Source: Brasenia schreberi
Lineage: Eukaryota > Streptophyta > Magnoliopsida > Nymphaeales > Cabombaceae
NCBI GenBank assembly: GCA_036023115.1
Contig: JAYKKT010000059.1
Span: forward strand, 6,022,501 to 6,086,500
Direction: 5' to 3'
Length of the DNA: 64,000 nucleotides
Positions 36,601 to 57,065 of the stretch are shown one piece after another. Every line of letters starts with the position of its first letter. Position 1 is the first letter of the stretch. The position numbers and the translations under genes are program-made. The notes under the pieces were generated by a model. It had not been told where the DNA came from and searched no databases. It worked only from the letters and a program-made list of their open reading frames with translations.

Positions 36601-39600
36601 GAGAGGGGCTGTTGGCCACCAAAAGGAGTCTGAAACCCTAATTCCCAATTCTTCTTTTGTGGTTGATTCATATATATTCTCTTATGAATGCTTATTATTC
36701 TACATGGTATAAGAGCATCATCACGTCATCGAGGCGATGGGTGTTCACGCATTCAAGAAAATCCTTTTTAAGGCTTTAATCTAAACCATAAAAGTTTTTT
36801 TTGGGAAAAGGTAGAAGAAACATACCATGAGTTGAAGTGTTGGACAAAAACCTAAAGAGCAGCACACAACCTTGATAATTGACATGCGATATGGAATCAG
36901 AGGTGGCTACAGAGTGGGCACATATCTCGAGACGGTCGTCACAATTCCCAAGGTAGGTACATGGCTGAAAAGGTGAATTTTTTGATGACTCAATTCAAGT
37001 TTTCGATGAGAATAAAATCAACAACAAGATAAATGTCGTGCATATCACCACCATTAAATTTGATAAAAAAATTATAAAACTTAGTCTAGGGCAATTGAAT
37101 TTACCCTAATAGCAAAGAAAAAATGGGAAGTTATCACGGGACAAATTTCTCAACCCCATCCTTCATATCCGAGATATCTAAAATGAAAGGAGAATGCCAT
37201 CGTAGTTTTTTGGCTCATTAATTCTATGGTACCGAGTATTGGAAGTATCTTTATGTTCCTTAATTTTGCATCTAAAATTTGGACAGTTGTCACAAATGCT
37301 TATTCTAGGAAAATTAATATTGCTCTGAAAGTGTCGACAAAGAAGTCGAACTATCAGTGAGTACTATGCCTAACTTAGAAGTCTATGAGATAAACTATAA
37401 TATTATAATCAAGGAGAATGTTTCCATTATGTCAAGAACATAAATGCAAAGTTAGAAGAGAAGAAAGTGTTTGATCTACTGTGGGTGTAATATATTCTTT
37501 ACTCGTACGAGACAAAGATATGAAAAACTTAGAGGAAGAAGAAGTACAAAGAGGCTTTTGTGAGTCATGGGCGGCAGAAAAGTAGTCATGGAAGAGGGGG
37601 TGCCTCCACTAGTGGTCGTGGATCCTCACATCCTATGAAAAAGACAAACTGAAGTGCTTCCATTATGGGGAGTTAAGACATACTAAGGAGCAGTACTGAG
37701 ATTTTATTGAAAAACCAGCATACCTCAAGAATAAAGCTTATCATGGGAGCTCTTTAGATACAGTGGATGCATAAAATAATATGTTTTAACAAATATTAAA
37801 GTGACTAGATTATTTAGAAAAATCTAGAGAGGGACAAGAATCTATCTCAGACCTGCAAGCTGTAAATAATTGTTGTCAATCGAAGGTTGAATCGCCAACG
37901 TTGAAATTCGTCAAATCCTCAAGATCTCAAAACATCCGAATATGGATGTCACATATAAAGAACACACTAGGAGACAACAAGAGTCCAAACAATGAAGTTA
38001 AATAAAAAACAAAGGTTGTACAAGACATCATAGATCTTATTGATGAGATGGATGGGGTATTTATAGGGTTTATACATATCAACATTGAAGGCAAAAAGAA
38101 GACAACAATGGGGTAAGTGCTAGCCAAGGCTGGCCCGTTGGAGTCCAACGGCTAGTTGCTGACCAGGCCATAGCCATTGGCCAGCATGCCGTTGGCCTCC
38201 AATGGCTATGGCCATGCGGGCTGTAGTGGTCCGCGCCATGCTCAAAGAGTGCACGGGCCCTAATGGCCCATGCCACCTATTACAATTAACACCCCTCTCA
38301 AACTTATGGGGTATATACCGAAAGTTTGTCCAATAAAATTTGAAAACGAGTGGTCGAGAGAGATTTGGTGAAGAAATCAGCTAGTTGCATCTCTGATGAA
38401 ATATAACACAAAGTTATTTTCTTTTGTAAGCATTCTTTACGAACAAAATAGCAATCCATTTCAATATGCTTCGTCCGTTAATAAAAGGTGGTGTTGGACG
38501 TAACATACATGATACTTTTATTGTCACAATACATAGTGGCAGGTTGGTGAGAAGTAACATCCATATCGCTCAGAATAGTTGTAATCCAAGAAATCTCCAT
38601 AACTGCAGTAGACATGACTCAATATTCTGCTTCGGTTGAGGAAAGTGACACCTTATGTTGCTTCTTACATTTTCAAGAAATGAGTGATTCACCTAGAAAA
38701 ACACAAAATTCAGTCGTAGAATGTTTATGGTTGACATCTCCGCCCCAATCAACATCGGTATAGACAGATAAATCAAAAGAGGAGGAAGAAGTGAGAAGTA
38801 CCCCCTTATCCATAGAGTGCTTTATGTATCTAATGATTCTAATAACTGCACTCATGTGACCACTAGTAGGAGCTTGTTGAAATTGACTTGCAGTGTGTAC
38901 GGCGTGTGATATGTCTGGATGGGTGATAGTGAGATAGGTCAGCGCTTCTGTAAGTTGTCCGTATGGGGTAGGATCATCTGGTTTCTCTCCATCTGATGCT
39001 CTCAATTTTGTTCCAAGAACCTTTAGTGTATCCACCCTCTTTTCGTCGGTTAGACCTGACCTGCCAACAATTTCACTCGTAAATTTTATTTGAGACATAA
39101 AGTATCCTCTATCATTACGTACAATTTCAATTCTCAAAAAATAACTAAGCAAACCAAGATCTTTCATTTCAAATTCTTTGTGAAGATCACTTTTAACTTG
39201 CAAGATGTCAGCTTTATCACTTCCAGTGATGATCATATCATCCACATAAAAGAGAAGAATTACTATACCTGCATCTGATTTCCTCACAAATAATGCAGTA
39301 TCAATATATCAAGAAGTAAAGTAATGTAGATGAATTAATTTTTCAAAACGATCAAACCAATCCTTAGGGGCTTGTTTCAAAGCATATAATGCTTTTTATA
39401 GTTTGAGAACATGATCCTGTGGAAAAACAAACCCAGGAGGAGTCATATAAACTTCTTCAGTTAAACATATATTTAAAAAGCATTTTTAACATCAAGTTGA
39501 TATATGACCTAGTTTTGAATAGCACTAAGGGTGATTAAAATTCTAATAGTAGTCATTCTAGCAACAGGAACAAAAGTTTCATCATAATCAATTCCATGTT

Positions 39601-42600
39601 CTTGATCATATCCCTTAACTATCAATTTGGCCTTATATCTTTCTATATTACCGTTCCTATGAGTTTTAATTTTATAAACCCATCGACATCCGATAACCTT
39701 CTTATTTTTAGGCGTAGGTACAATGATCCAAGTTTGAGCTTTGTCAAGGGTTTTAAGTTCATCACTCATAGCAGCTTTCCATTCAGGAATCCCTTTAGCT
39801 TGGTCATAAAGCTTAGGTTCTTTGATTTGATGAAAAATTGTGATTAAACTTTTGCGTTGAGGTTCAAAGGTTTCATAGGAAACAAAACGTTGAGGACGTT
39901 TTAAAATTCTAGGTTCTATACACGTGTTATCAGATTCTCTATGACGTCGTGTATAATATAATGGGAAGGGTTTAATGATGGATTGAGGATGAATAGTTTC
40001 ATTTTGGACACAATCACGCTCTAGAGGACTATCTTGATGATCTTCAGGGTCTCAATCTTCATCTTCTTCTATATCAAAGAAGTCTTGAGATATAGATGAT
40101 TCAGAACTTTCCAAAGATTTAGACTTATAGTAAGCATCATTTTCATAGAATTTTACATCCATAGAAACATACAATTTATCATTGAAAGGATCAAAACATC
40201 TATAACCTTTTTTGTCTATGCCATAACCAAGAAATACACATTGAATGGCCCTAGGAGACGATTTATCATTTTTATATGTATAAACAAAGCATTTGCACCA
40301 AAAAACTCTAAGTCTTTCGTAATAAGGAGGAAGATTATATAGTTTTTCCAGGGGAGAAATATTTTCAAGTTTGGATTAAGTCATTCTATTAATAAGATAC
40401 CCATAGTAAGAACAATTTCACCCTACAACATACTGTAGAACAGGTACAGACAACAAGAAAGTTAACAAACAATAATTTCAATAACGTGTATATATTTTCT
40501 TTCAGCCAAACCATTTTGTTGAGGGGTATAGACACAAGATGATTCATGGATTATTCATTTTTTCTCGGAAAATGCATGAGTCCGATTAAAGTAGTCTTTA
40601 AGCATTATCTGACCAATCGTCTATCACCCACCCCAAATTGATTTTTAATCATGGAACAAAAATTTGGGAGAACAAGACTAATATAAGACTTGTGTTTGAG
40701 CAGAAAATCCAAGAACACGTGTACCATCAATAAAAAGACACAAACCATCTTGCCCTGCAGACACTAGGAATGGAAGAGGGACCTCAAACATCACCGTGGA
40801 ATAAGAGAAAAAGGAACGAACTTGTATTACTAATCGAAAATCGACACGCTTATGTTTAGCAGCCCACATACTTCACAATGAAATTGTTCAACAATTTTTT
40901 TTAACAAAGGAAAATTACACAATTTATGAATATCCAAATGTCCAAGTCATTTATGCCAAAGGGTAGCATCTTGGGCTACATTACAAGTTTCAAAATTTGG
41001 CATAACTAAACAATCCATTTTGTATAGTCCACTTTCTCTATGGCCTTGACCAATCACCTTCTTCGATAGGTGATCCTGCACCACACAATGCTTGAATAAG
41101 AAAGTGACTATACAATCATTATCACAAATTTGAGCAACTGAAAGTAAGTTTAGATTGAGTTTAGGTATAAAGCTTATGTTTTAGATTTTAAAATTGTCCT
41201 TTTCGAAATTTTCTATTTTTTCAATTTGAAGTTTTGTACCATCGGCCGTAAATACATGCTTTCCAAAGATATCATGAGATTCATTTAAGGATTTTTCACA
41301 ATGAGTAATATGAAAAGAAACACCCTAATCTAAAAACCAAGACAGAGGTGGAGAGAGCGTTTTCGGAGATGTTTGCTTTTTCCTTAAACATTTATTCTAT
41401 ATATGCTTTGATGTTGGTAGGCAAGACTCCTCTTTCTTTATATTCCACGGCTCTCACATTTCCAAATTTCCTTCGAAGAAGAGGAAAAGTGGTTTTGATA
41501 TGCCCACTTTCCTTGCAATAGTAACATATGGTGTCCTTTGTTGGCTATGGCCCCGTGGGTTTCTTGCTTGTTCTTTCGAAGTTTTTCGTATGTGGAGGCT
41601 TGTATATCTTCATGTTAGCTCCCGGTTTGGAGGTGGCAAGAATGACTTCTTTTGCAACATTGATATTTTTCAACCTTGTTTCCTCAATAACAAGATCAGT
41701 AAAAAACGAGTCTCCTTTTGGTCTAGGTTTTCTATGTATTAAGTTTGATCTAATATTTTCAAATTCATGTCTTAAATCACGTATAAACAAAAAGAAATGT
41801 TGATTATCCAAAAACTCTTGAAATTCATCCATTTTTTTGAGTTTTTCGAATTTATCAAAACTTATAAGTTGAGTTTATAGTTCCGAAAACTCATTGTGAT
41901 AATCTCTAATACTTAAGTTCCCTTGCTTAAACATTATCATTCTTTCCATTAAATCAATTTGGAAAACAAAATCATCTTGAGAGTGAAGCTTTTTTAAGTA
42001 TTCTCATGTTTCAAAAGTATTTTCGAAAATACTAATTCTATTTGTAAGTTTTTCATCTACATTTTGACAAATAATCCAAGTTATTTTAGCATTCATTTTT
42101 CTCAAGTTTTTAGATCTTGCTTATCTTTAACATTATCATATCATCTAAACCATCAATGTCTAAAATCAGTTCTTTGATTGTGCCATCAATATAATCCCAA
42201 AAATCTTTTGATAAAAAATATTTTTTTATAGTTCTTGCTCAACTTTGGTAGCATTTTGGGACAAGAATGCATCTAAAAGATTCATTTTTGCTTTCCATTT
42301 TGTACAAAAACAAAAAATTTAGACTTACCTCAACATCGCAGTGATTTCACGAAATTCGCAATCTTGACATGCTTCCCAATGTGCTTGAAATCTTCAATAC
42401 GAGGCTCTGATACCATATAAATAATTGTTGATAATCAAAGGTTGAATCGCCAACGTTGAAATTCGTCAAATCGCAGAGATCTCAAAACATCACATATAAA
42501 GAACACACTAGGAGCCAACAAGAGTCCAAACAATGAAGTCAAATAAAAAACAAAGGTTGTACAAGACAACATAGATCTTATTGATGAGATGATGGGGTAT

Positions 42601-45600
42601 TTATAAGGTTTATACATATCTACATTTAAGGCAAAAAGAAGACAACAATGGGGTAAGTGCTGGCCAAGGCTGGTCGACCAGCACTAGTTGTTGGAGTCCA
42701 ACGGCTAGTTGCTGGCGAGGCCATAGCCGTTGGCCAGCATGTTGTTGGCCTCTAACAGCCATGGCCATGCGGGCCGTGGTGGTCCGCGCCATGCTCAAAG
42801 AGTGCACGGGCCTATTACAATTAACAGAAGCTTCTTTGGTCTGTGCATCATGCTTTAACTCCATGAACTCTACTGGTTTGTCTTCTTATACTTCTTGTAT
42901 TATTGATTCCGGAGTAATCCATCATGTGACTGGTAACAGGAATATTTTTAATTCTTATGAATGTATTAAAGTTGGTAGCTGTGTAAAACTTGAAAATGAT
43001 TCCCACATTCATATTTAAGAGAAAAGGAAAGTGGGAACATCAATTGACAATCTCCTTTCAGTATTACATGCCCCTAAATTTCCTATCAACCTTTTATCTT
43101 TCCATGCTGTCACTAAAGAGTTAGATTGTTTACTTACATTCGATACAAATGGTTGTTTATTTCAGGATCAGAGGATAGGGAGGATCCTTGGGTATGGTAG
43201 AGGAAAAGGTGGATTATAATTTTTGGATGGAGTGTAGTCATGAGTAACCGTGAATAAAAGGATTATGGATGAAGTGTCAAATAAATCAGTATGTGACACA
43301 AAGACTGGGTCATCTTTCTTTTTCAAAACTAAAAAATAGTTCCTGATTTGAGTTTAGATGTAGTCAGTTTGTCTCTTGATGTGACACTTGTCATAAAGCC
43401 AAGCATCATAGACTGAGCTTTCCTAGTAGTAAGTGTAGAAGAATAAACACATTTGAGCTTGTTCACTCGTGTGTGAGGAGTTCGAGTTTCATAGTTGTTG
43501 AAAACATCACAGCACCACACTAGAGAGAAGATTATTGGAGAGGAAAAAGTGGAAAGGAGGGAAACGAAGGGCGGCCCTCTTGAGGAGGGCTGCCCTCCTC
43601 TCTCTTCTATTTCGTAAAACGCTTAAACCTAATACAAACCGTACTATCCTTATATAGTGGACTGTTAAACATAAAATGATAAAGCTGCCCTTAGGCATAA
43701 GGACTATAACAACAACAACTAAGCCTTTTCCCATACTAGACGGGGTCGGCTACATGGATTCTTTGTTTCCACAGATCCCTGTCGTGTGCCATGTTAGCAG
43801 TTAACTCCCAATAAGCTAGATCATTCTTTATTGTTTCTTTCCAACACTTTTGTGGTAGTCTTCTAGCTCTATTAATACTTTCCAAATTTAGTTTTTCATA
43901 CCTTATTACAGGTTCTTCTTTTCATCTTCTTTCTATATGTCCAAACCATCTTAAACGATACTCTCATTTTATCCTCTATTGGTGTCACTCCTAATTTGTT
44001 TCTAATAACGTCATTATGTATACGATCTTTTCTTATATGACCACTCATCCATCTCAACATCTTCATTTCTGTCAGAGACATCTTTTGTACATGTTGATGA
44101 TTAACTGCTCAACACTCAGAACCATAAAGCATGGCAGGTCTAATTGCTGCTCTATAATATTTATCTTTTAACTTTAATGGTATCTTCTTATCACAAAGAA
44201 TACCTGATGCTCCTCTCCATTTTAACCAACCAGCATTAATTCTATGTGTAACATTAATTCTATGTGTAACATCTCCATTAATTCTTCCATTACTCTGAAA
44301 AATTGACTGAAAAATTGACCCTAGGTATTGAAAACTTTCCTTTTGGGGAATGCAATGTGTGCCAATTTTAATTTCAACCATGACAGGTGGATAACTGCAG
44401 GCAACGGTCTTGAGGAAACAATCAAGCACCTGCTGGACATTGCAGCGAACGCTGCTAGTTCCATGCTTGAATTGCTTTCTCATCAGAGAAAAACCATGGC
44501 TTCCCTGAGCAGTTGCAAGCAACTCCCTTTTCGAGCATTCCCGACTTCAGAATCCCTGATTTCCTCACTTGTTGGACGCTCAAATGATTCAAATTGTAGG
44601 ATTTCTGCGGCATCATCCTGCTAATTGTAATAGGACTGGCAGTCGGCCCATGTTTGTAACAGGACTGGCCCAGGCCACTAGGGCCTGGGGTAAGTCAACT
44701 AGCCGTTATGTTACACTGTGCTGTGCACAGCACAACATCCATCTGTTTTCTTTAGTCTTTCTATAAACACCTCGTATCACTTCCCTTATAAATACCTCAC
44801 TCCATCATCAATAAAATTATGTTGTCATCGTACAGCTTTTGGCTTGTGTTTGGTTTGCTTTCGCTCTCTTGATTGCTATATTTGAAGTTTGGCATCCATA
44901 CTTGGTGACTTTGGAATCTTATCGATTTGTTGAAGTTGCATCGTGAGCATCAACCTTCGATCATCAACACTTATTTACATGGTATTAGAGCCTCAGATTG
45001 AAGAAATCGAGTGTATCGGGAAGCATGCCATAGGTGCAAATTTTGAGAAAATATACCAAACTTGAGGTTAGTCCAAATCTTTTGATTTTGCACGAAATGG
45101 AAAGCAAAAATGAGATGTTTAGATGTATCCTTGACCTAAAATGTTATCAAAGTTGGATTAGGACCATGAAAAAATATTTTGTCAAAAGATTTTTGGGACT
45201 ACATTAATGGAACCATAAAAGAACCAATTTTGAATATTGATGGTTTGAACGATGATGAAATTATTAAAGCTCATGAAAAATATAAGCAAGACTTGAAAGT
45301 ATGGGAAAAATGAATGCAAAAATTACGTAGATTATTTGTCAAAATATTGATAACAAGCTTAGAAATAGAATTAGTGTTTTCGAAAATGCATTTGAAACTT
45401 GGGAATATTTAAAGAAACTTCATTCTCAAGATGATTTTGTTTTTCAAATTGATTTGATGGAAAGAATGATAATGCTTAAATAAGGAAATTTAAGCATTAG
45501 AGACTACCGTAATGAGTTTTCAGAACTATGGACCCAACTAAGAAGCTTTGATAAATTTGAAAATCTTCACAAATTTGATGAATTTGAAGAATTCTTGAAC

Positions 45601-48600
45601 AATCAATATTTCTTTTTGTTTATGCGTGGGTTAAGAGATGAATTCAAAAACATTAGACCAAATTTAATACATAGAAAACCTAGACTTAGAGGATACTCTT
45701 TTTTGGTCGACCTTGTTATGGAGGAAACAAGATTGAAAAATATGAATGTCGCCAAAGAAGCCGTTCTTGGCGCATCCAAACCGGGAGCTAACTTGAAGAC
45801 TTACAAGCCCCCACATGCGAAAAATACCGAAGGCACATCAAAGAAGCCCATGGGACTGTGGCCTAACAAAGACACCATTTGTCATTATTGCAAGGAAAGT
45901 GGGCATATCAAAACTACTTGTCCTCTTCTCCGAAAAAAGTTTGGAAATGTGAGAGCCATAGAAGAAGGAGGAGTCTTCCCCAACAACATTAAGGTATATA
46001 GAAGAAATGTTCAAGGAAAAGGCAAGCATCTTTGGGAATGCTCTATCGAGTCTATCCACTTCTCAAGGTATGTCTTGGTTTTTAGATTCGGGTGCATCTT
46101 TTCATATGACACAGTGAAAATTCTTTGATTGAATATCGTGAAACCATTGGAAAACATGTGTTTACGGCCAACGGCACAAAACTTCAAATTAAGAAAATAG
46201 GAACTTTTGAAAAAGAAAATTTTAAAATTCAAAACGTAAGCTTTATACCTAAACTTAACTTGAACTTACTTTCGGTTGCTCAAATTTGTGATAATAATTG
46301 TATAGTCATTTTCTCATTCAAACATTGTGTGGTGCATGATCACCTATCGAGGAAGGTGATTGGTCAAGGCCATAAAGAAATAGGACTATACAAAATGGAT
46401 TATCTTGTTATGCCAAATTTTGAGTTTTGTAATGTAGCCCAAGATGCTATCCTTTGGCATAAAAGACTTGGACATTTGGACTTACAAAAACTATGTAACA
46501 TTCCTTTGATGAAAAAAATTAGAGAGCAAAAGCTTGAATGTAAAGAGTGTATTCTTGGGAAAATGTATCTTCTCTCTTTTGGAGAAAGAAACTATGTACC
46601 AAACAAAGCTTTTGAGTTAATACATTTGGATGTTTGGGGCCCCGTGCCCGTTGTTTCTAAGGGAGGAGTTCAATACTATGTGATATTCATAGATGACTTT
46701 ACTCGCTTTACTTGGATATACCTCTTGAAACATAAATCAGAAGTGTTTGAAAAATTTATAATTTTTTGTAACATGATCAAAAATCAATTTGAAGCCACCA
46801 TTCAGATTTTTAGATCGGATTCAAGAGGAGAATACATGTCAAATGAATTTCAAAAATTTATTGAATCAAATAGAATTTTTCATCAAAAGTCATGTACTAA
46901 AACCCATCAACACAATGGCTTAGCTGAAAGAAAACATAAACATATTATAGAAACATGTCGAACTATGTTGATTGCTAGTAAAGTTGTCACGTTTTTATGG
47001 GCAGAGGCTACACTTACTGCAGTTTATCTTATAAATAGAATGCCTTCATCCAATCTTGAAAATATTTTACCTTTTGAAAAATTATATAATATTTCCCCAT
47101 ATTATGAAAGACTAAAACTCTGCCCATGTAAGGGATTACCCTTGCATTGTCGGTCCCAAGCCCGGATCATCCAATCTAGATAATAAGATTTGTATTGGTT
47201 CTTGGAATATTGGAACATTATCGGGTAAGCTAATGGAGGTGGTAGATACTATGATTCGGAGAAAGATTCATATTCTATGTTTACAAGAGACAAAATGGGT
47301 TGGAGAAAAAGCAAAGGAGATAGAGGATACATGTTTTAAATTATGGTACTCTGGTAAAGAAAAGGCTCGAAACGGAGTTGGTATTATCATAAATAAAGAT
47401 TTAAAGGAGAGTGTAGTATACATACAACGATATGGTGACCGAATCATGACGTTGAAATTAGTGTTAGGAGCAGAGGTTTTGAATATAGTTTGTGCTTACG
47501 CACCCCAAGTAGGATTAGAAGATAGTATAAAGACAGTTTTTTGGGAAGAGTTAGATAAGGTGTTTCAAAAGATTCCACAAAGGGAGATGATTTGTTTAGG
47601 AGGAGATTTAAATGAACATGTCGGTAAAGAGGCATTAGGATATCAAGGGATTCATGGAAACTTTGGTTATGGGGATATAAACGAGGAAGGTAGGGAGATT
47701 TTAAATTTTGCTATGTCATTTGATCTCTTTATAGTCAATACAATCTTCAAAAAACGAGATGAACATTTAATTACTTATAAGAGTGGCTTATCACACACAC
47801 AAATTGATTACTTTATTTGTAGAAAAAAAGATAGAGCGTGTTGTAAAGATTGTAAGGTAATTCCAGGAGAAAGCTTAACCACCCAACATCGACTTTTAGT
47901 TATGGATTTACAAATAAAAAAATGGACAAAGAAGAAAAGAGTGCATCGAGCTATTCGGACTAAATGGTGGATCCTCAAAAGCGAGAAAGAAGATATATTT
48001 AAACAGAAAGTCCTTCAAGGAGATGTTTGGAATTATGTTGGCACACCCTGTGATATGTGGAACAATATGGCTATACATATTAGGAAAGTGGCGAAAGATG
48101 TGTTAGGGGTATCTAAGGGAGGTGTACCAGCACAAAAAGAAGCTTGGTGGTGGAGTGAAGTAGTACAAAATAAAATCGGTAAAGAGGTCATGTTACAAAT
48201 TACATTATGCTAAGAAAACTAGTGAAAGTTTAGAAGCTTATAAGAAAGCAAAGAAGGAAGCGAAAAAGGCCGTTAGTGAAGCAAAAGCTAAGATTTGGGA
48301 TGACTTATATAAAAAAACTCAACTCAAAAGAGGGTGAAAGAGATATTTTTAGGATAGCTAGGGCTAGAGATAAGAAAACTAAAGATCTTAATTATGTTAG
48401 ATGCATAAAAGACGAGGATGAAAATTTTCTAGTGGCAAATGATGATATAAGAAATAGATGGAAAAACTATTTTTATAATCTTTTTAATGAAAATAAAGAT
48501 GTTAGTATTAATTTAGGAGATTTAGCAAGTCAGAATAGTATATAAATCACAATTTCTACCGACGTATTCAAAAGAATGAAGTCAAAGAGGCTCTTAAACA

Positions 48601-51600
48601 TATGAAGAGTGGTAAATCGGTAGGACCAGATAATATTCCTATAGAAGTTTGGAAAATACTAGGAGAAATAGGACACAAGACTATTTAATGAAATATGAAA
48701 AAACCAAAAGATGCCCGAGGAATGGAGAGCAAGTACACTTATACCCATATATAAGAATAAGGGAGACATTCAAAATTGTGCGAATTATCGAGGTATCAAG
48801 TTAATGAGTCATGAAAGAATTATCGAACATAGGTTAAGACAAGTATCAAGTACAACAGAGAACCAATTTGGATTTATGCCAGACAGATTTACTATTGAAG
48901 CGATTCACCTTTTGAGACGTCTTATGGAACATTTTAGAGCAAAAAAGAAAGACCTTCACATGATATTTATTGATCTAGAAAAAGCTTATGATAGGGTACC
49001 GAGGGAGGTTCTTTGGAGAACTTTGGAAAAAAGAGGTATCCCATTGACATATATTAACCTTATAAGAGACATGTACGATGGTGCAAAAACATGTGTGAGG
49101 ACTCATGAAGGAACGACATACTTCTTTGAAGTTAATATTGGGTTACATCAAGGATCAACTTTAAGTCCATACTTATTTGTAATGGTGATGGATGAGTTAA
49201 CAAAACATATTCAAGATGAAGTACCTTGGTGTATGTTATTTGCAGATGACATTGTATTAGTGGAGGAGTCTAAGGAAAAAGTTAATAGAAAATTGGAACT
49301 ATAGAGAGAAACATTAGAAAGCAAAGGCCTCCGACTTAGTAGAACAAAGACAGAATATATGGAATGTAAGTTTGATTATTTGGCTACTTCAAAGGACATA
49401 GAAGTTAAAATTGGCACACTTTGCATTCCTCAAAAGGAAAGTTTTAAATACCTAGGGTCAATTTTTCAAAGTGATGGAAGAATTGTACACATAGAATTAA
49501 TGCTGGTTGGTTAAAATGGAGAGGAGCATCAGGTATTCTTTGTGATAAGAAGATACCATTAAAATTAAAAGGTAAATATTATAGAGCAGCAATTAGGCCT
49601 GCCATGTTTTATGGTTCTGAGTGTTGGGCAGTTAATCATCAACATGTACAAAAGATGTCTGTGACAAAAATGAAGATGTTGAGATGTATGAGTGGTCATA
49701 CAAGAAAAGACCGTATACATAATGAGGTTATTAGAAACAAATTAGGAGTGGTACCAATAGAGGATAAAATGAGAGAACATCGTTTAAGATGGTTTGGACA
49801 TATAGAAAGAAGATCAAAAGAAGAACCTTTAAGAAGGTTAGAAAAACTAAATTGGGAAAGTATTAAAAGAGGTAGAGGACGACCACAAAAGTATTGGAAA
49901 GATACAATAAAGAATGATCTAGCTTATTGGGAGTTAACTGCTAACATGGCACACGATAGGGATATGTGGAAACAAAGAATCCATGTAGCTGACCCCGTCT
50001 AGTATGGGAAAAGGCTTAGTTGTTGTAGTTGTTGTTGTATTATGAAAGACTAAGAGTTTTTGGATATAGATGTTTTGTGTATACAGATAAAAATGATAAA
50101 CTATCTCTTAGGGTTATTGAATGTGCATTTCTTAGTTATGGCATAGACAAGAAGGGCTTTGATCCCATTGAAGACAAATTATATGTTTCTAAGCATGTAA
50201 ATTTTTTTGAGAATGATGCGTTGTATGGTTTGAAAATGGTATGGTTTGAAACAAGCTCTTAAGGCTTGGTTTGATCGATTTGAAAAATTCATGCATTTGC
50301 ATAGCTATACTTACACTGCCTTGTTTGTACGCAAAACAGAATCATGTATTGTTATTCTATTATTATATGTGGACGATATGATCATCACTAAGAGTGATAA
50401 AGCAGGGATTACAGAGGTTAAATGTTATCTTCACCAAGAATTTGACAAGAAAGACTTAGGCCTTCTTAATAATTTTTTGGGCATTGAAATTACTAAAAAC
50501 AATTGTGGGTATTTTATGTCTCAGACAAAATTTGCAAATGATATCATTGAAAGGTCTGGTCTCACAGATACTAAAATAGTAGACACACTAGAAGTTCATA
50601 CAGTGAGTCAATTTCAGCAGGCATACAGGTATCAACTTAGTACCAAAATAGGTACTAAGTTAAGATCCACTGATGGTGAAAAATTAGTTGATCCCACCCC
50701 GTACAGACAACTCATAGGTGCTCTTACCTATCTCACTATTATCAGACCAGATATTTCTCATGCAGTTCATACAATGAGTCAATTTCAGCAGGCATCAACT
50801 TCTGTTCATATGAGTATTGTTTTACGCATCATTCGATATGTTAGAAATACTTCTAACAAGGGGGTTATCTTAACTTCATCTTTTGATTTATCTGTATATA
50901 CGAATGTTGATTGGGGTGGAGATGTCAACAATAGACACTCTACGACTGATTTTTGTGTTTTTCTAGGTGAATCACTTATCTCTTGGAAGTTTAAGAAGCA
51001 ATAGAAAGTGTCGCTCTCATCCACAGAAGCTGAATATTGAGTCATGGCTACTGCGGCTACGAAGATCTCTTGGATCACAACTATTCTAGGTGATATGGGA
51101 GTTACTTTGCAACATCTGGCCACTATGTATTGTGACAACAAAAGCGTTATGTACATTGCTTCTAACAACACCTTCTATGAAAGGACAAAGCATATTGAGA
51201 TGAACTGCTATTTTGTTCATGAAGAATGTTTGAACAAGAAAATAACACTGTGTTATGTTACATCAGAGATGTAGCTAGCTGATTTCTTCACCAAATCTCT
51301 CTTGACCACTCGTTTTCAAATTTTGTTGGACAAACTTTCGGTATATACATCGTAAGTTTGAGGGAGGGTGTTAATTGTAATAGGACTTGCCTAGGCCACT
51401 AGGGCCTGGGGCTAGTCAACTGGCCTCCAACGGCTAGTTAATAGCCGTTATGTTACAGTGTGTTGTGCACAACACAGTTGTTTTCTTTAGTCTTTCTATA
51501 AACACCTCGTATCACTTCCCCTATAAATACCTCACTTCATCGTCAATAAAATTATGCTGTTATCTTACAACTTTTGGCTTGTGTTTGGTTTGCTTCCGCT

Positions 51601-54600
51601 CTTTTGATTGCTATATTTGAAGTTTGGCATCTATACTTGGTGACTTTGGAATCTTAGCGATTTGTCGAAGTTGCATCGTGAGCATCAACCTTCGATCATC
51701 AACACTTATTTACACATCCATGGGGCATTCATGAGTCTCGACTTGGTCTTCGTGCGAAGGAGACTCGAGTTCCGCTCGAACATCGGCCATCTTGTCGTCG
51801 ATGCCGACGAAGTGCAACGCACAACCTTGCCTCCATCCCTGTCTGACAAACTATCATCTTTATTATCATTGTCGTTGTTGTCGAAACTCTTCTTGCTCAC
51901 CATCCTCCATCGGCTTCCGTGCTTGTTGGCGGTGCTTCTTCAGACCTTCCAGGAGGGATTCGATGGAGGAGGAGCAACAGAACTTCGCTTTTGGATAGCA
52001 ATTCAGGGCATCCCTTTGGGGTGCATGGCTGAAATAAGGGTTCTTTGTCTTTCATTGCAAGTTTTCAACATCCTTCTCAATACTGATTTCGCTTAAGACT
52101 TGCTCTTCATTTATATGTTTAGGCAAGGGAAGCTGGACAAGTATTCCATGGACATCGGGATTAGAATTGTACTCATGAACTTTTGTAATTAGCTCTTCTT
52201 CTGACATTTCCTCTGCCAGTTCAACAATACATGACTTGATGCCGACCTCAACACATGCTCTCTTCTTCATGTTTACGTAACTTTGAGAGTCTTTCCAAGT
52301 TCCAACAAAGATAACAACAAGCTCAGGTACTTTGTTGTATTTTTTTGAGAGATCAATCACATCCTTGGCAATTTTGCTCCAGATTTTACTAGCTATGGCC
52401 TTTTCGTCAATGATAACACAACCATCTTTGCTACTCTTTTGTTGATCGGACGCCATCCATACTCTGTTCCTCCTCTTCGTTGTCGGACTCCCAACTTCTC
52501 GACCTGTGGAAACATTTCTCTCGGGGACTGGGGACGCTTCTCTCCTCCTCACCGGTGACGCGCTTCTCCTGTTAGACAAATCTTTCCTCTTCCTGTAGAC
52601 TGGAGTATGTCGGAGAAGCTACTGTACTTCTATTGCATTGTTGTCATCCGTCACCGCCATCAATGCTTTCTTCCTCTGTTTTCTTTTACAAGGGGGCTTC
52701 TTTGGCGCTCAGGGAGCCTGCTTCTTCGACTCTTTGTAATCCGGCTTTATCGGCGCTACATTCTCGGTTGGTTTTATGGAGAGATGGCTCGCAGAATCTC
52801 GGATAGGACCTCCTTCACCTTCTCCTCCTCCGGTGGGTTCCTCGACATCGGGTCGAGTTCATGCGCTTGCTTCTTGCCTGAGGGGTGTTTGGGATTCTTG
52901 GATTGCTTGGTCATGCTCATGCAAGTTCCCATCAAGGAGGTGTATCTAGGAAGTGGATTTCGGGATCTCACATGGCTCTACGTTGCACTTGTTTTGGGGC
53001 ACATATTCACAAATGGGAGATGATGCATTCTTGCAAAGACGCTTTGTTGTGCTGGAGAACAATGATGATCGTTAAATTCTCTTTGATACCATGTTAAAAC
53101 ATCGCAATGCCACACGAGGGAGAAGATTACAAGAGAGGGAGAAGAGGAAAGGAGGGAAACAGAGGGTTGTCCCTCCATCTCTCTCTTCTATTACGTAAAA
53201 CCCTTAAACCTAATACAAACCGTTCAGTCCTTATATAGTGGATTGTTAAACATAAATTGACCAAACTATCCTTAGTCATAAGGACTATTACAATAATACC
53301 TAAAATCTCCATAATTATATTCTTCAACAATAGTTGCTATATCTAGCTACAAATATTTTGTTACTTTTGTGGATAAGGTTCACAATGGTTTACTTCATGA
53401 AAAATAAAAATGAAGTTTCGGTTATATTTTTCATGCTTCATAAGTTTATGACAACTCATTTTCAGCATTCTATTAAGTGTATTAGATCAAATAATGGTGG
53501 AGAATTCGATGAAATTGTTTTGAAAAATTATCTAAAAAATCATAGTATAATCCACTTCTCCCGAATGGAGTGATAGAAAGGAAAAATCACCACATTTTAG
53601 AGACAATAATAGCCTTACTAATCAAAAGTAATGCTCTTAAGATATATTGGAGCGATGTTGTTTTGATGATCATTTATCTTATAAACACATTTGTACTACA
53701 AGGAAGGATTCCACTATAGGTACTGATGCTTAAAAAAGAAACTCTTCAATATCCCTCTCATAATATTTGAGTTATTTGTTATGATCATGACCATTGCGAA
53801 CATAGAGATAAGCTGAATTCAAAAGCTATTAAGTGTATTTTTCTTGAATATTCATCTACACAAAAGGGTACTTCCATTATGATCCCAGTAGGAGGAGAGT
53901 ACATGTATCAATGGATGCAACCTTTTTGAAGATTTCATCTATGATAGCAAAGGAGAGAAACTACTCACATGAGACTAAGATTTGTGTGTCACACCTATTA
54001 ATCCTAGAACAGAAGAAGAAAGTGAGGATAAACCACAACAAGAAGAGTTGGAATAAGAAAATCAGAATAAGTGTGAATTGTAAGTGTATAGCAGACGGTA
54101 CAAGAATGTTCCAAGGGAAATGGATGTACCCTACAAGAATGTTCTAAGGGAAATCGTGAAGCCTACTATACCCCAAGAAGATGACCTCTCGTCCGATCCG
54201 CAGTTGCTTGGCTATGTGCCTGAACATTCTATTACATTACCAGCTGAAAATGAATTGAATGTTCCCATCCTTTTAACAAAAGGAAAGAGATCTTGCTTCT
54301 ATCCTATATTCCAATGCATATCTTATCATGATACATCAAATAACTTTAATATGTTTGCTCTTAATTCTTATCTTATTCCGGTGCCAAGAAATTATGAGCA
54401 GGCCAAGGGCTCCAAACAATGAAAAGAAGCTACGGGGACTAAGATTCTTTTTTGGAGAAGAACAACACTTAGGGGATTGTGAAACTACTTCCTAGAAGAA
54501 AATCAGATGCAAATGTGTATACACTATTAAGTATAGAACTGATAACATTATTGAGAGATATAAAGCACGGTTAGTCGCCAGAGGTTACAATCATCGTAGA

Positions 54601-57065
54601 TTATACTGAGATTTTTGCACAGGTAGCAAAAATGACTATTATCAGAGTTATTATTAAATATAGTTGCTAATAAAGGATGGAAACTTTGGCAACTGGATGT
54701 TAAAAATATATTTCTCAAAGAATACCCGAATGAAGAAATTTATGTGGATTTACCGTCTAATTCTTATTACAGATTTACGGAAGTGTATATAAACTCAGGA
54801 AGGTTATATATGGACCAAAACAATCACCTAGGTTTGAATGGTGTTACCAATCATGTTTATAAGAAGTGTAAGGAAGGATAATGGTATTTGTGTCTTAGTA
54901 GTTTATATGGATGATATTATTATCAATGGAGATAATGATAATGAAATCAAGTAACTAAAGGAACAACTGCAAAATTTGTTTAATATGAAGGATCTTGGAT
55001 CGTTCATTATTTCTTGGGATTTGAAGTATTGAGGAATTCACGGGGCTTATTCCTAGCTGAAAGGAAATATACTCGGAATCTACTGAAGGATACTCACATG
55101 TTAGAGTGTAAGCCTACATACATGCCCATGGACAGTAGCTTGAAATTAAGTGTTAGTATCGATGAATAGTTACGGGAGCCCGAAGAATATCAAAAGTTAG
55201 TGGGATGACTTTTATATATTTGACGATTACACGCCCAAATATTTTGTATGTTAAGTATGGTAAGTCGGTTTATGTAATGTCCTACCAGATTTCATATGAA
55301 CGTTGTGAGACAAATATTAATATACTTGAAGCACACTCTAGGAAATGACCTCTTGTATACAGTTTATGATAATTTTAACGTGATGTGGAGGTATTTATAG
55401 TTGCAGATTGTGAAGGCTCTGTTGATGATAGACGGTTGACCTCAAGATATCTAATGATGGTTGACCTCAACGTGATGTGGAGGTATTTACAGTTGCAGAG
55501 TACAGAGTGACAATGGTTGGAGTCAGTGAAGCAATCTGGCTAAAATCTTGACTACAAGAACTTGGCACCCACCTTAAAGGGCCAATCTTATTCTATTGTG
55601 ATAATCAGGTTGTAATCCAAATAGCTACAAATCCAGTATGTCATGAGAGAATAAAGCATATTTAAACAAATTATCACTTCATAAGAGATACATTAAAGTC
55701 TGGAATCATTGACATGATATATGTTCGATGAACAATATGCTGATTTCTTAATCAAAGCCTTAGGGAAAGGAAGACTCGAAAAACTCTTTAGGAAGTTAGG
55801 GACTCAAAGTATCTTTGTCCCAACTTTAGGGGAGTGCTAGAATGAGTCTGTATTAGTCTTTATGGGTTATGTATTGAATTAGTCTTGTTTTCTTTGAATT
55901 TGTTTTTAAAGGTACTTTAAATTAGGAGCCACTTAATAAGGGCATTTTCGTCTTTTTCTTTTATATCTTGTATTATAAAACTTAGTGGTCAGTCGACCAC
56001 AATAATAAGAAAGAAAAAGGGAGAGAGGGGCTGCTGGCCTCGAAAGGGAGGCTGAAACCCTATTTTGCAATTCTTTGTTTGCTTGATTCACATCTATTCT
56101 CTTGTGAATGGTGATTATTCTACACAAGTATGCAATCGAGGAGCAAAGGAGTATTTAGTATTAAAAACCATCATAAAACGGATGAAGGGGGCATGCTAGT
56201 TGTATACCTATGTCATAGATAATTGGACTGCCTTAATTTCTCAAGCTTCGCCATGGGTGAGCATGCACCTTCAAGAGTGATCTCTTGAGCATATTATTCA
56301 TGGAAAAGCAAAAATATTTCTCATCATTCCTTCCTCTCTCTGATTTGTAGTGTTTTTTTTTTCAGTACTTGAACTTCAAAGAACGTGATTAGAAATGACA
56401 TTTTTAAGTTATAATTGCCATAGTGCGTGGAGGGAAGGGGCTTGCATGGAAAGATGCCTTAAAGCCCTGATATCATCTGATCGGGATCATGTAACGTCTT
56501 TGCAACTGCTGTTACCTGTCAGCCTCAGCGCGGCACACATTTTTTCTTGACTGGAGCACATGACATATTGTTAACGGCATTCAGAAAACTGAAATTGAAT
56601 TTGAGATTGTGAGGGAGTTCAGTTTTATTTGCAAGAACCCCTGTTTACTGTGAATATGCAGATATTACTTGTTTATGTCAAAATAGATGCTTATTACTTG
56701 AGGCTGATGGAATAATTTGGTGATTGGCAGGGAACGTCATTAGCCTCCACTCTGTCAATGAGCTAGCGGCCAAGTTTAGTGCCGCGGAAACTCTATCACG
56801 GCTAGTGGTTCTGTACTTCACTGCCACATGGTGCGGCCCCTGCCGGCTTATTTCACCTGTTTACATTGAGCTGGCTAAGAAACATCCTGAAGTGGTGTTT
56901 CTCAAGGTTGACATCGATGAGCTTAGAGAGGCTGCAGCACAGTATAATATAAACAGTGTCCCTACATTCTTCTTGTTGAGAAATGGTAAGGAGCTTGACA
57001 AAGTTGTCGGTGCCGATAAGAGAGAGCTCGAGAGAAAGATCGCTCTGCATGCAAGTAGTATGTGA
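30663..57065 (+). CDS. TDX: TPR repeat-containing thioredoxin TDX (Hsp70-interacting)
   Basis: Ten exons join in frame: 30663-30775, 30895-30931, 33907-34041, 34122-34209, 34295-34375, 34475-34539, 34646-34786, 34869-34955, 35599-35647 and 56731-57065. They total 1131 nt, or 376 residues, against about 380 in Arabidopsis TDX. Residues 1-45 are the Hip N-terminal dimerisation domain. The acidic [20 protein letters not shown] precedes MGD at 96. TPR repeats span about 110-220 ([36 protein letters not shown]), followed by a basic helix ([20 protein letters not shown]). The thioredoxin domain, 266-376, has active site W299-C-G-P-C303 and [15 protein letters not shown] acts in the cytosol as a disulfide reductase and chaperone that binds Hsp70 through its TPRs. 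All key residues are intact. Intron 4 has a GC donor, and intron 9 is 21.1 kb of nested retrotransposons. A shorter, TPR-only product is possible if intron 9 is not spliced. Confidence 0.95.
30932..33906 (+). other. Intron 2 of TDX
   Basis: A 2975-bp GT-AG intron. It contains a 40-base RTE 3'-end relic near 31638-31680 and stretches rich in GGTAC/GTACC words at 31555-31690 and 32900-33005 that may be the ends of a decayed element. The reading frames inside have no recognised product. Confidence 0.75.
31638..31680 (-). mobile_element. RTE LINE extreme 3' end relic
   Basis: The plus strand reads ACAACAAAGCCTTTTCCC and ATACTAGACGGGGTCGGC, the complement of the conserved RTE 3' terminus also seen at 43699 and 49990. 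Only about 40 bases remain. Confidence 0.75.
34210..34294 (+). other. GC-AG intron of TDX (intron 4)
   Basis: Exon 4 must end ...TCAGAAG at 34209 for the frame (S-E-G-R-L-S-K-A) to match TDX relatives. The next bases are GCAAAT, and the acceptor is TTTTTAG at 34294. No GT gives a correct join. GC donors of the form AG|GCAAGT are the known minor class. Confidence 0.85.
34956..35598 (+). other. Intron 8 of TDX
   Basis: GTAAGG donor and ATCATAG acceptor, 643 bp. No feature recognised inside. Confidence 0.8.
36415..36704 (+). repeat. 5' LTR of copia D
   Basis: The second half matches 55900-56124 closely (ATTATAAAACCTAGTGGTCA; GAAAAAGGGAGAGAGGGGCT). The start is inferred from LTR length. Confidence 0.7.
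36900..37860 (+). pseudogene. Copia D gag remnant
   Basis: Decayed gag with a zinc-knuckle trace (plus strand AAGTGCTTCCATTATGGGGA near 37650) after a Gly/Arg-rich stretch. No frame stays open. The coding trace continues at 42832 with protease, which shows that copia E interrupts it. Confidence 0.6.
37861..38291 (-). repeat. 3' LTR of copia E
   Basis: Similar to 42416-42826; starts at 38291 with TGTTAATTGTAATAGG on the minus strand. Confidence 0.9.
38300..39790 (-). pseudogene. Copia E reverse transcriptase-RNase H
   Basis: Minus-strand RT remnant 39769-39509 ([37 protein letters not shown]) ends in a stop. The catalytic [14 protein letters not shown] follows at about 39250, then [12 protein letters not shown] and RNase H segments ([25 protein letters not shown]) to about 38400. 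Stops and a frameshift near 39300 break it. Confidence 0.88.
40100..42330 (-). pseudogene. Copia E gag-protease-integrase
   Basis: Minus strand: gag is broken at 42300-41830 and open at 41832-41545 ([38 protein letters not shown]). A zinc knuckle [14 protein letters not shown] lies near 41500, then LDSG protease and integrase segments down to about 40150. Multiple stops. Confidence 0.85.
42416..42826 (-). repeat. 5' LTR of copia E
   Basis: Adjacent to the primer-binding site (plus strand GGCTCTGATACCA ending at 42415). Confidence 0.9.
42832..43490 (+). pseudogene. Copia D protease and pre-integrase remnant
   Basis: The stretch encodes [18 protein letters not shown] (protease DSG), then [20 protein letters not shown] and [17 protein letters not shown] zinc-binding pre-integrase trace [11 protein letters not shown] follows and the sequence is cut at 43495 by the next insertion. 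Integrase resumes at 53335 ([10 protein letters not shown]). Confidence 0.8.
43496..43698 (-). repeat. 3' LTR of the transcript-carrying element (truncated)
   Basis: Matches 53092-53290 and has an extra GC-rich inverted repeat (GGGCGGCCCTC...GAGGGCTGCCCTC) at about 43570-43602. The last 40 bases of the LTR are missing where the RTE relic begins. Confidence 0.85.
43699..44375 (-). mobile_element. RTE LINE 3' fragment
   Basis: On the minus strand the fragment begins at [20 protein letters not shown] and runs through [20 protein letters not shown] and [16 protein letters not shown] to the GTCTAGTATGGGAAAAGGCT terminus with a GTT-repeat tail. It is 5' truncated and has small internal duplications (near 44240-44270 and 44295-44315). 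The 3' tail abuts the broken LTR. Confidence 0.9.
44376..44618 (-). pseudogene. Captured MSL fragment, distal part, and an unassigned tail
   Basis: On the minus strand, after removal of copia C and one TSD copy, the MSL frame continues from 51720 into 44613 and reads [17 protein letters not shown], matching the VPKSGQLRSGMLGK-type segment of MSL channels. Similarity ends near 44524. The next 150 bases (to 44376) have no recognised product and may be a fourth captured piece. Confidence 0.65.
44619..44979 (+). repeat. 5' LTR of copia C
   Basis: Begins TGCTAATTGTAATAGG (the 3' LTR has TGTTAATTG), ends TTATTTACA, and is followed by the primer-binding site. Confidence 0.9.
45060..47099 (+). pseudogene. 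Copia C gag-protease-integrase (5' part)
   Basis: Gag is broken by stops up to about 45590. An open stretch at 45595-46128 follows ([20 protein letters not shown], zinc knuckle [14 protein letters not shown]). The next frame, 46125-47115, has [76 protein letters not shown] and [15 protein letters not shown]. It is cut at 47115 in the NISPYYERL segment by the LINE. Confidence 0.9.
47233..48213 (+). pseudogene. RTE endonuclease domain
   Basis: AP-like endonuclease (exonuclease-endonuclease-phosphatase fold) with [13 protein letters not shown] near the N-terminus, [13 protein letters not shown] in the middle and [15 protein letters not shown] toward the end, the expected catalytic set. In-frame codons continue upstream of the ATG ([20 protein letters not shown] start), so the true start may be earlier. 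The frame ends at 48213 by a frameshift. Confidence 0.9.
48220..50002 (+). pseudogene. RTE reverse transcriptase and C-terminal region
   Basis: Successive open pieces lie at 48276-48545, 48711-49304 and 49604-50002. The RT core has [50 protein letters not shown] and the catalytic [11 protein letters not shown]. The C-terminus has [12 protein letters not shown] and [18 protein letters not shown], characteristic of plant RTE. Frameshifts near 48315, 48550, 48690 and 49300 and a small deletion near 49490 disable it. Confidence 0.9.
50038..51368 (+). pseudogene. Copia C integrase end, reverse transcriptase-RNase H (3' part)
   Basis: The frame resumes after the LINE with [21 protein letters not shown] deletion near 50235 removes the first part of RT. 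The catalytic [16 protein letters not shown] and the [15 protein letters not shown] segment follow. A local duplication at about 50595-50650 repeats HTVSQFQQA. RNase H segments are [15 protein letters not shown] and [13 protein letters not shown], with stops near 51004, 51040 and 51274. Confidence 0.88.
51369..51714 (+). repeat. 3' LTR of copia C
   Basis: Starts TGTTAATTGTAATAGG after the polypurine tract and ends TATTTACA. Confidence 0.92.
51720..51903 (-). pseudogene. Captured fragment of an MSL mechanosensitive channel
   Basis: The minus-strand frame starts [15 protein letters not shown] and reads [12 protein letters not shown] and then [15 protein letters not shown]. The order matches the cytosolic N-terminal region of plant MSL proteins ([28 protein letters not shown] in relatives), which lies before the membrane helices. 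The frame continues on the far side of copia C at 44613. No pore helix is present. The fragment is intronless and lies in the element's sense direction. MSL proteins are membrane-tension-gated channels; this piece alone could not form one. Confidence 0.75.
51987..52456 (-). pseudogene. Captured FolD (methylene-THF dehydrogenase/cyclohydrolase) N-terminal fragment
   Basis: The minus strand reads [60 protein letters not shown] and [20 protein letters not shown], then ISIEKDV. This is the cytosolic FolD catalytic half; SYVxxK contains the active-site Tyr and Lys. At about 52058 a deletion of about 25 bases and a frame change lead to [20 protein letters not shown] in another frame; similarity ends near 51987. 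The NADP-binding half is absent. FolD makes 10-formyl-THF from methylene-THF and normally has introns; this copy has none, so it derives from mRNA. The open frame continues upstream in frame into the SR-rich piece at 52579. Confidence 0.9.
52457..52932 (-). pseudogene. Captured fragment of an MGTCMS-type small plant protein
   Basis: The minus strand begins [17 protein letters not shown], an N-myristoylation-like start, and continues [20 protein letters not shown] before a stop at about 52774. After a frame-scrambled middle, [20 protein letters not shown] lies at 52570-52500. The combination of MGxCxS start, [11 protein letters not shown] and a basic SPVRRR tail resembles a plant family of unknown function that I recall only in outline. 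The last part is open in frame with the FolD fragment (52579-52052, 175 codons), a chimeric reading frame. Confidence 0.5.
52933..53091 (-). other. Leader of the transcript-carrying element, with primer-binding site
   Basis: On the minus strand the LTR is followed at 53091 by TGGTATCAAAGAG, complementary to initiator tRNA-Met at its first eight bases. About 140 bases without a recognised gene precede the MGTCMS start. Confidence 0.7.
53092..53329 (-). repeat. 5' LTR of the transcript-carrying element
   Basis: 238 bp, TG...CA ends on the minus strand; flanked by TSD ATAGT at 53330-53334. Confidence 0.9.
53335..55834 (+). pseudogene. Copia D integrase-RT-RNase H remnant
   Basis: Integrase resumes as [10 protein letters not shown] and [22 protein letters not shown] traces are [13 protein letters not shown] near 54560, WQLDVKNIF near 54690 and the catalytic [12 protein letters not shown] near 54900. 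RNase H traces ([21 protein letters not shown]) lie at 55400-55640. A local duplication of GGTTGACCTCA...AACGTGATGTGGAGGTATTTA lies near 55375-55495. Stops and frameshifts are frequent. Confidence 0.8.
55835..56124 (+). repeat. 3' LTR of copia D
   Basis: Begins TGCTAGAATGAG after TTTAGGGGAG and ends GATTATTCTACA. Confidence 0.85.

Follow-up and report, generated by a model that had tools for sequence, protein, structure and literature searches.

Sense pieces of five host genes in a non-autonomous LTR retrotransposon of Brasenia schreberi

The window, that is, the whole stretch of DNA that was analysed, comprises 64,000 nucleotides of Brasenia schreberi (assembly GCA_036023115.1, contig JAYKKT010000059.1, positions 6,022,501 to 6,086,500). 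Its minus strand holds, at 43496-53329, the now decayed copy of a non-autonomous long terminal repeat (LTR) retrotransposon. Very probably, this element belongs to a large family and carries sense, intron-free pieces of five non-adjacent host genes, which were joined as the reverse transcriptase switched templates repeatedly. Template switching is favoured because microhomology is present at the four junctions between the pieces. A first-pass annotation, made from the sequence of the window, had already proposed it, and the proposal is supported by this microhomology, by the loss of introns from the FolD piece and by the scattered positions of the donor-like genes. In the following, loci are designated L and contigs C.

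Element architecture

The element is delimited by the following features.

53092..53329, minus strand: 5' LTR, 238 bp (BLASTN LTR pair)
43496..43709, minus strand: 3' LTR, the initial ~26-45 bp gone (BLASTN LTR pair)
43491..43495, no strand: target-site duplication (TSD) ATAGT, perfect on both flanks
53330..53334, no strand: TSD ATAGT, perfect on both flanks
53079..53091, minus strand: putative primer-binding site (PBS) TGGTATCAAAGAG, directly 3' of the 5' LTR

The LTRs form a direct pair with a TG start and a CA end (TGTTGAAG...AACA), as is typical of an LTR retrotransposon. The BLASTN match between them has an E-value of about 1e-47, and their alignment holds 177 identities, 35 mismatches and 15 gaps. 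The LTR pair and TSD, which the first-pass annotation had pointed out, are not coincidental. Nine elements with LTR pairs were inspected by eye, some with degraded ends (the window element, L011, L012, L013, L020, L021, L043, L049 and L053). The 5-bp TSD is perfect in the window, L020, L021 and L049, agrees at four of five bases in L011, L012, L043 and L053, and is not clear in L013. A TGGTATCA-type PBS motif is present in the window element and its relatives; we take TGGTATCAAAGAG to be complementary to tRNA-iMet. No tRNA gene was found within the 64-kb window.

A LINE (long interspersed nuclear element) that inserted later, at 43708-44375, adjoins the 3' LTR; with it, the start of this LTR, the polypurine tract and the end of the cargo were lost. 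In L011, L012, L013, L020 and L021, a common GAAGTATCTCACTCCCAACTTGAGGG-like sequence stands ahead of the 3' LTR. At the other end, little of the element's own leader is left after the PBS, because the first host piece already starts (53060) about 130 bp upstream of its ATG. No gag-pol was found between the LTRs of the window element, in agreement with the first-pass annotation, and the interior is accounted for by five host pieces, partly lost.

Host gene pieces

All five pieces lie in the sense direction of the element, as had been proposed for the cargo. Three fragments had been named earlier (MGTCMS-type, FolD and MSL). All three are real, but the count falls short, as a PPR-like piece (51988-51911) and an F-box/Sel1 piece (44517-44376) have to be added.

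52453..53060, minus strand: MGTCMS-type piece, ~130 bp upstream of the ATG (52932) and about 190 codons' worth of coding sequence, with a frameshift near 52790 and two in-frame stops
51986..52457, minus strand: FolD piece, beginning at the initiation codon and reaching about codon 160, with a deletion of ~25 nt near 52064 (Pfam, tblastn)
51911..51988, minus strand: PPR-like piece, 78 bp, 91% identical to L040 (C91:46.20 Mb)
51715..51913, minus strand: MSL (mechanosensitive channel) N-terminal coding piece, 88% identical to the L038 gene
44514..44613, minus strand: MSL piece beyond a later insertion, copia C (one single match, 51913 to 44514)
44376..44517, minus strand: F-box/Sel1 piece, cut by the LINE, 83-85% identical to L045/L046

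Donor-like genes were sought by searching the assembly (1.055 Gb, 92 contigs) with the element interior, in a search that skips very common words. The MGTCMS-type piece matches the Victoria protein P0121 (tblastn, E 3e-20) and has genomic paralogues at L027 (C69:219910, 81%), L029 (C91:18.15 Mb, 76%) and L031 (C58:13.88 Mb, 73%). The FolD piece is recognised by the Pfam family THF_DHG_CYH (2e-37) and continues, by tblastn, beyond the frameshift or deletion to about 51986. FolD genes are located at C69:14.78 Mb (two), C91:38.15 Mb and C74:8.78 Mb, and the piece groups in a tree with the two C69 genes, to which it is 94.8-94.9% identical. The FolD and MGTCMS-type proteins are closest to those of Nymphaea and Victoria. 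The Quercus protein P0001 was considered as a chimera and rejected; it merely has a duplicated exon, which explains its top FolD rank. At 52466-52456, the reading frame passes from the MGTCMS-type piece directly into FolD (TKRRNRVW-MASDQQ). This may be what remains of a fusion reading frame, which is broken upstream by the frameshift and stops.

Direct identification of the MSL piece failed: a PDB search with the fragment was negative, and none of 102 candidates in a protein search reached E<=1. Its sequence strings likewise gave no match in a motif search of the literature. The best genomic match, L038 (C40:5.14 Mb), is 88% identical over 305 bp, followed by C70:19.50 Mb (85%), and a PDB search with the L038 exon identifies it as coding for a channel of the MSL10 type (E 1.5e-58). 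The genome match and this PDB search together settle the identity of the piece. It had been claimed that the MSL frame continues across copia C, and indeed the L038 match runs through once one copy of the duplication CATCC is counted. The 78-bp piece is presumably PPR-like; the Pfam evidence for a PPR in L040 is weak, with no match in one exon and E 0.037 in the next open reading frame (ORF). F-box/Sel1 genes are present at C92:41.18 Mb, C77:4.39 Mb and C79:16.98 Mb, and L045 and L046 have both F-box and Sel1 Pfam matches.

The best donor-like genes are not adjacent, being separated by about 14.5 Mb or lying on separate contigs: C69:219910 for MGTCMS, C69:14.78 Mb for FolD, C91:46.2 Mb for the PPR-like piece, C40:5.14 Mb for MSL, and C92:41.18 Mb or C77:4.39 Mb for the F-box piece. 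Source genes that are intronless and adjacent had been named beforehand as evidence against capture from mRNA; the FolD genes have introns, and the donor-like genes stand apart.

Intron loss and junctions

The FolD gene L032 has introns at three sites within the captured segment, CTCCAG/GTACC, CCATG/GTATT...TTCAG/GAATAC and CCAAAG/GTATTG, and the window piece crosses all three without a gap. Similarly, a 142-bp GT-AG intron of the F-box gene (GAGATG/GTTGG...TATGCAG/GGGAATAG) is exactly absent from the sister copies L042 and L043; in the window copy, this region belongs to the lost part of the cargo. In total, four introns of two genes have been exactly lost. The MGTCMS, MSL and PPR-like pieces align to their genes uninterrupted and are silent on splicing. 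The earlier statement that the cargo lacks introns holds, therefore, for FolD at exact splice sites, and these three pieces are uninformative about it.

Microhomology was read by eye from present-day donor-like genes. It amounts to 6 bp (GATGGC) at MGTCMS/FolD, 3 bp (GCG) at FolD/PPR-like, 3 bp (CCG) at PPR-like/MSL and 7 bp (CTGCAGC) at MSL/F-box. When breakpoints were placed at random in the donor-like sequences, no set of four in 100,000 reached at least 3 bp at every junction or at least 19 bp in total. Taken singly, the short overlaps are unremarkable (p about 0.05 each), and the long ones have p-values of 0.0015 and 0.0006. No poly(A) tract was seen between the pieces at the four junctions.

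Probable stepwise build-up of the cargo

The junction of MSL and F-box recurs in L042 (C92) and L043 (C73). In L043 the order is LTR, leader, MSL, F-box/Sel1, family 3' region and LTR, with about 85 bp of extra MSL sequence on the 5' side. The leader and the 3' region are common to the family. A single capture of all five pieces was rejected, since this sister has the downstream MSL/F-box pair only. The MGTCMS, FolD and PPR-like pieces are joined upstream of MSL in the window copy only, among the matches of the interior search: its 41 other matches include none that crosses a join of MGTCMS to FolD, FolD to PPR-like or PPR-like to MSL, very common words being skipped by that search. The MSL/F-box pair was inherited ready-joined, so that not every join need date to the window lineage. 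The first-pass description of a mosaic of unlinked transcripts is right as to the donor-like genes, which are not adjacent, and has to be amended for this pair.

The 5' LTRs of L043 and the window element are 68.6% alike and represent different LTR subfamilies, whereas the cargo is 80.8% alike. Because of this difference, cargo seems, on sequence comparison, to pass between elements.

The family and its cargoes

A genome search for further copies with the LTR at 53092-53329, as suggested earlier, yielded 960 first-look candidates; 40 were scored and all 40 matched, including the query itself and its 3' partner. With the 574-bp 3' region of L013 as query, there were 1560 first-look candidates, and the 40 scored all matched, the query included. 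Five elements with LTR pairs came from the LTR search. L013 carries CREG (7e-18), L021 RPL5 (1e-13) and L011 PDS5 (7e-8); the UTP25 match of L012 is non-significant (0.024), and L020 has none. Among the longer loci around LTR matches (L011-L025), 10 of 15 showed no comparable LTR pair. L048 and L049 match the interior of L013 at 76-77%, the CREG stretch being included whole or in part; therefore, cargo has been propagated.

For a wider survey, the 16 places ranked directly after the 3'-region query (L051-L066) were taken from the 39 other scored places. Rank order was chosen to avoid selection by cargo, and it still decided inclusion for L051-L054, which had been viewed beforehand. ORFs >=50 aa were taken from the interval that runs from the 5' LTR, located in 12 of the 16, to the 3' region and were compared with Pfam at E<=1e-3. 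The sense ORFs (n=81, 6213 aa) match 15 Pfam families. Six are of PPR type (PPR, PPR_1, PPR_2, PPR_3, E and E+); the others are Piwi, carboxyltransferase, DEAD, TIM, ROH1-like, KH_2, GATase, amino-acid transporter and histone deacetylase (HDAC). None of the antisense ORFs of the same relatives (0/86; 6267 aa) has a Pfam match, and no gag or pol match was obtained from the 81 sense or 86 antisense ORFs of their 5' interior. By Pfam, the relatives carry:

L051: ROH1-like
L053: carboxyltransferase
L054: PPR
L055: DEAD and KH_2
L056: PPR
L057: amino-acid transporter (below the Pfam cut-off)
L058: TIM
L059: HDAC (below the cut-off) and PPR
L061: PPR
L063: E+ motif
L064: Piwi
L066: PPR

The single GATase match is assigned to no particular element. 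Host domains occur in 12 of the 16 relatives, or 11 at Pfam's own cut-offs, against 0 of 16 in antisense (Fisher p 1.6e-5 and 6.8e-5). With PPR-type matches excluded, the figures are 7/16 (p 0.007) and, at the cut-off, 5/16 (p 0.04).

A PPR-like peptide of CARQVFDEMPKRDVNSAHHLFDQMSQRS type stands, in one frame or another, beside the 3' region in L051, L053, L056, L060, L064 and L066. It is perhaps a gene captured early that is now part of the element body.

An intronless FolD piece is also found at 12 further places, five of which were read, in a second subfamily (L028, L030, L035-L037 and L067-L068; contigs C52, C91, C74, C90 and C51). It is near full length in the best-read copy, L028, and its nearest FolD gene is not the one nearest to the window's piece. 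One copy viewed in full has the family LTRs and 3' region. From these sequences, FolD seems to have been captured at least twice. A derivation of the window piece from this subfamily was rejected, as the tree places it with the two C69 genes. L028 and L030 also carry a fragment of glycosyl hydrolase 3 (Pfam, 6e-11 and 3e-11).

Proposed origin and alternatives

The short RNA of the element and host mRNAs would be packaged together by the Gag-Pol of an autonomous element, which would supply the reverse transcriptase in trans. Minus-strand synthesis would begin at the PBS, transfer to the 3' end and copy the family's own 3' region. The growing strand may then jump, at a microhomology of 3-7 bp, onto a host mRNA, copy a part of it, possibly jump again, and return near the PBS. 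Integration of the mosaic would produce the 5-bp TSD. Such captures would be heritable, and cargo would accumulate in steps, with MSL/F-box as the shared pair and MGTCMS, FolD and the PPR-like piece added upstream in the window copy only.

Several other routes to the same structure were weighed. The mosaic of the window could have been built mostly by recombination between element copies, at the DNA or RNA level, and not by jumps onto host mRNAs in the window lineage. The MSL/F-box pair under a different LTR subfamily in L043 fits this, as cargo does seem mobile between elements; the first captures would still require spliced RNA, though, and the three upstream joins are peculiar to the window among the interior-search matches, so that we regard this route as unlikely, with a real but minor chance. 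Processed host cDNAs could also have arisen elsewhere and entered an LTR element successively, either as retrocopies produced by LINEs or as repair patches. The window has many LINE copies, and in plants retrocopies of this sort are described (PMC4838847). Even so, the junctions abut on microhomology with no poly(A) seen between them, the FolD, MGTCMS and MSL pieces come from the 5' portion or the interior of their genes and not from the 3' end, and the Pfam matches in the 16 relatives are sense-only, which makes such an origin quite improbable.

Read-through transduction of neighbouring genes, as suggested for some plant elements, would likewise yield sense, spliced cargo, situated beside one LTR. 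The donor-like genes are not neighbours of one another, however, and the cargo of L043 lies between leader and 3' region, not outside an LTR; the chance of this route is very small. Capture at the DNA level with coincidental LTRs would place the element beside Pack-MULEs and Helitrons, which often bear gene fragments (review PMC13317346). Against it stand the four introns exactly absent from the copies of two genes, the LTR pairs with 5-bp TSDs and the sense-only Pfam matches, and it is the hardest of all to credit.

Some observations weigh against template switching onto host mRNAs, or against its frequency in the family. LTRs of a pair are identical at insertion, and the K of 0.227 for the window's pair is discordant with a FolD piece only ~5% from the C69 FolD genes; moreover, the window's 5' LTR shares 81% identity with its own 3' partner, less than the 88% that it shares with an LTR on C85. 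This discordance may stem from gene conversion, uneven decay or LTR recombination. The FolD tree took in three of the four intron-bearing FolD genes, the C74 gene being left out, and intron loss was examined for FolD and F-box alone. In the survey, 4 of 16 relatives (L052, L060, L062 and L065) have no Pfam match, the cargo stretch of L052 being 141 bp without an ORF of sufficient length. L057-L060 have no 5' LTR within 1.7 kb, and flanking DNA is possibly included. The PPR matches are the weakest evidence, as a PPR-like piece near the 3' region is shared in the family, and PPR genes are numerous and many of them intronless.

Beyond template switching in the window element, we lean, with some reserve, towards an LTR family that has specialised in incorporating host mRNA and would be to RNA what Pack-MULEs are to DNA. 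It would have perhaps more than 1000 copies, and most of its members would be heritable, growing mosaics of spliced transcripts.

Surroundings in the window

The element is one layer of a nest at 36472-56124, where copia D contains the cargo-carrying element, which contains copia C, which in turn contains an RTE-type LINE.

44619..51714, plus strand: copia C, a later insertion within the MSL piece, with the TSD CATCC at 44614-44618 and 51715-51719
about 47115-50037: RTE-type LINE inside copia C
43708..44375, minus strand: 5'-truncated LINE, a later insertion, 88% identical to the LINE at 49401-50030 and presumably of RTE type

Copia D has its own apparent LTR pair (36472-36704 and 55894-56124), and when the flanks of the cargo-carrying element are joined at one TSD copy, a copia D frame of ~60 codons, which we take to be integrase, continues over the join. 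Copia B (37863-42812) and a second LINE are also in the nest region. Elsewhere, at 13974-26595, ORFs resembling parts of what we assume is a nucleoside-transporter gene lie on either side of a 10-kb insertion with an LTR pair (15163-25611), which encloses another copia.

Relation to known systems and significance

Template switching to host mRNAs is already known, and the closest known precedents are maize Bs1 and soybean GmaRetroS15. Bs1, likewise an LTR element, has taken up parts of three host genes (review PMC13317346), and these are limited to exons (PMC4717578). The element of the window is like it in having exons of unlinked host genes, but it has five pieces and relatives with different cargoes. 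GmaRetroS15 is a TRIM (terminal-repeat retrotransposon in miniature), small and non-autonomous, with intronless fragments of three genes, 5-bp TSDs and copies made after capture (Gao et al. 2016, PMC4717578). Gao et al. report 30 TRIM elements that carry genes; they belong to 7 of 289 subfamilies and measure 1.2-1.4 kb. Here, in contrast, a single family has host domains in 12 of the 16 members sampled and elements of 1.3-5.3 kb; six relatives measure 1.27-5.3 kb and five of them at least 2.0 kb, which is not TRIM size.

The maize B73 survey (Baucom et al. 2009, PMC2774510) reports 425 gene-carrying LTR elements from at least 189 captures and identified no element that combines fragments of two or more standard nuclear genes. 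Five genes are found here in one element, and two in at least one relative (L055). Mosaics from abnormal template switching appear among Triticeae composites (Sabot & Schulman 2007, PMC1950507) and in Veju/BARE-2 (review PMC13317346). Those fuse elements mutually or with unknown sequence, whereas host mRNAs are fused here.

Pack-MULEs and Helitrons are alike in being families with many host fragments, but they are DNA transposons whose ends and TSDs differ from those of LTR elements; here, introns are exactly absent, and LTRs with a 5-bp TSD are present. Pack-MULEs retain introns too (PMC4717578). The literature searches turned up no described family of this kind. New here are the number of pieces (five), an order of capture that can be read from the copies, and a family whose members often, perhaps as a rule, carry host mRNA.

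Until now, LTR elements have been known to capture host genes in scattered cases, nearly always with a single gene per element. Such a family would make the mechanism statistically testable over many independent events, through junction microhomology, the position of fragments on the mRNA, donor expression and the order of capture. It would also be a source of spliced, shuffled exons, a role that has until now been attributed chiefly to DNA transposons, and this in a lineage, likely Nymphaeales, close to the base of the angiosperms. If true, its members would be a fossil record of the mRNAs that entered retrotransposon particles.

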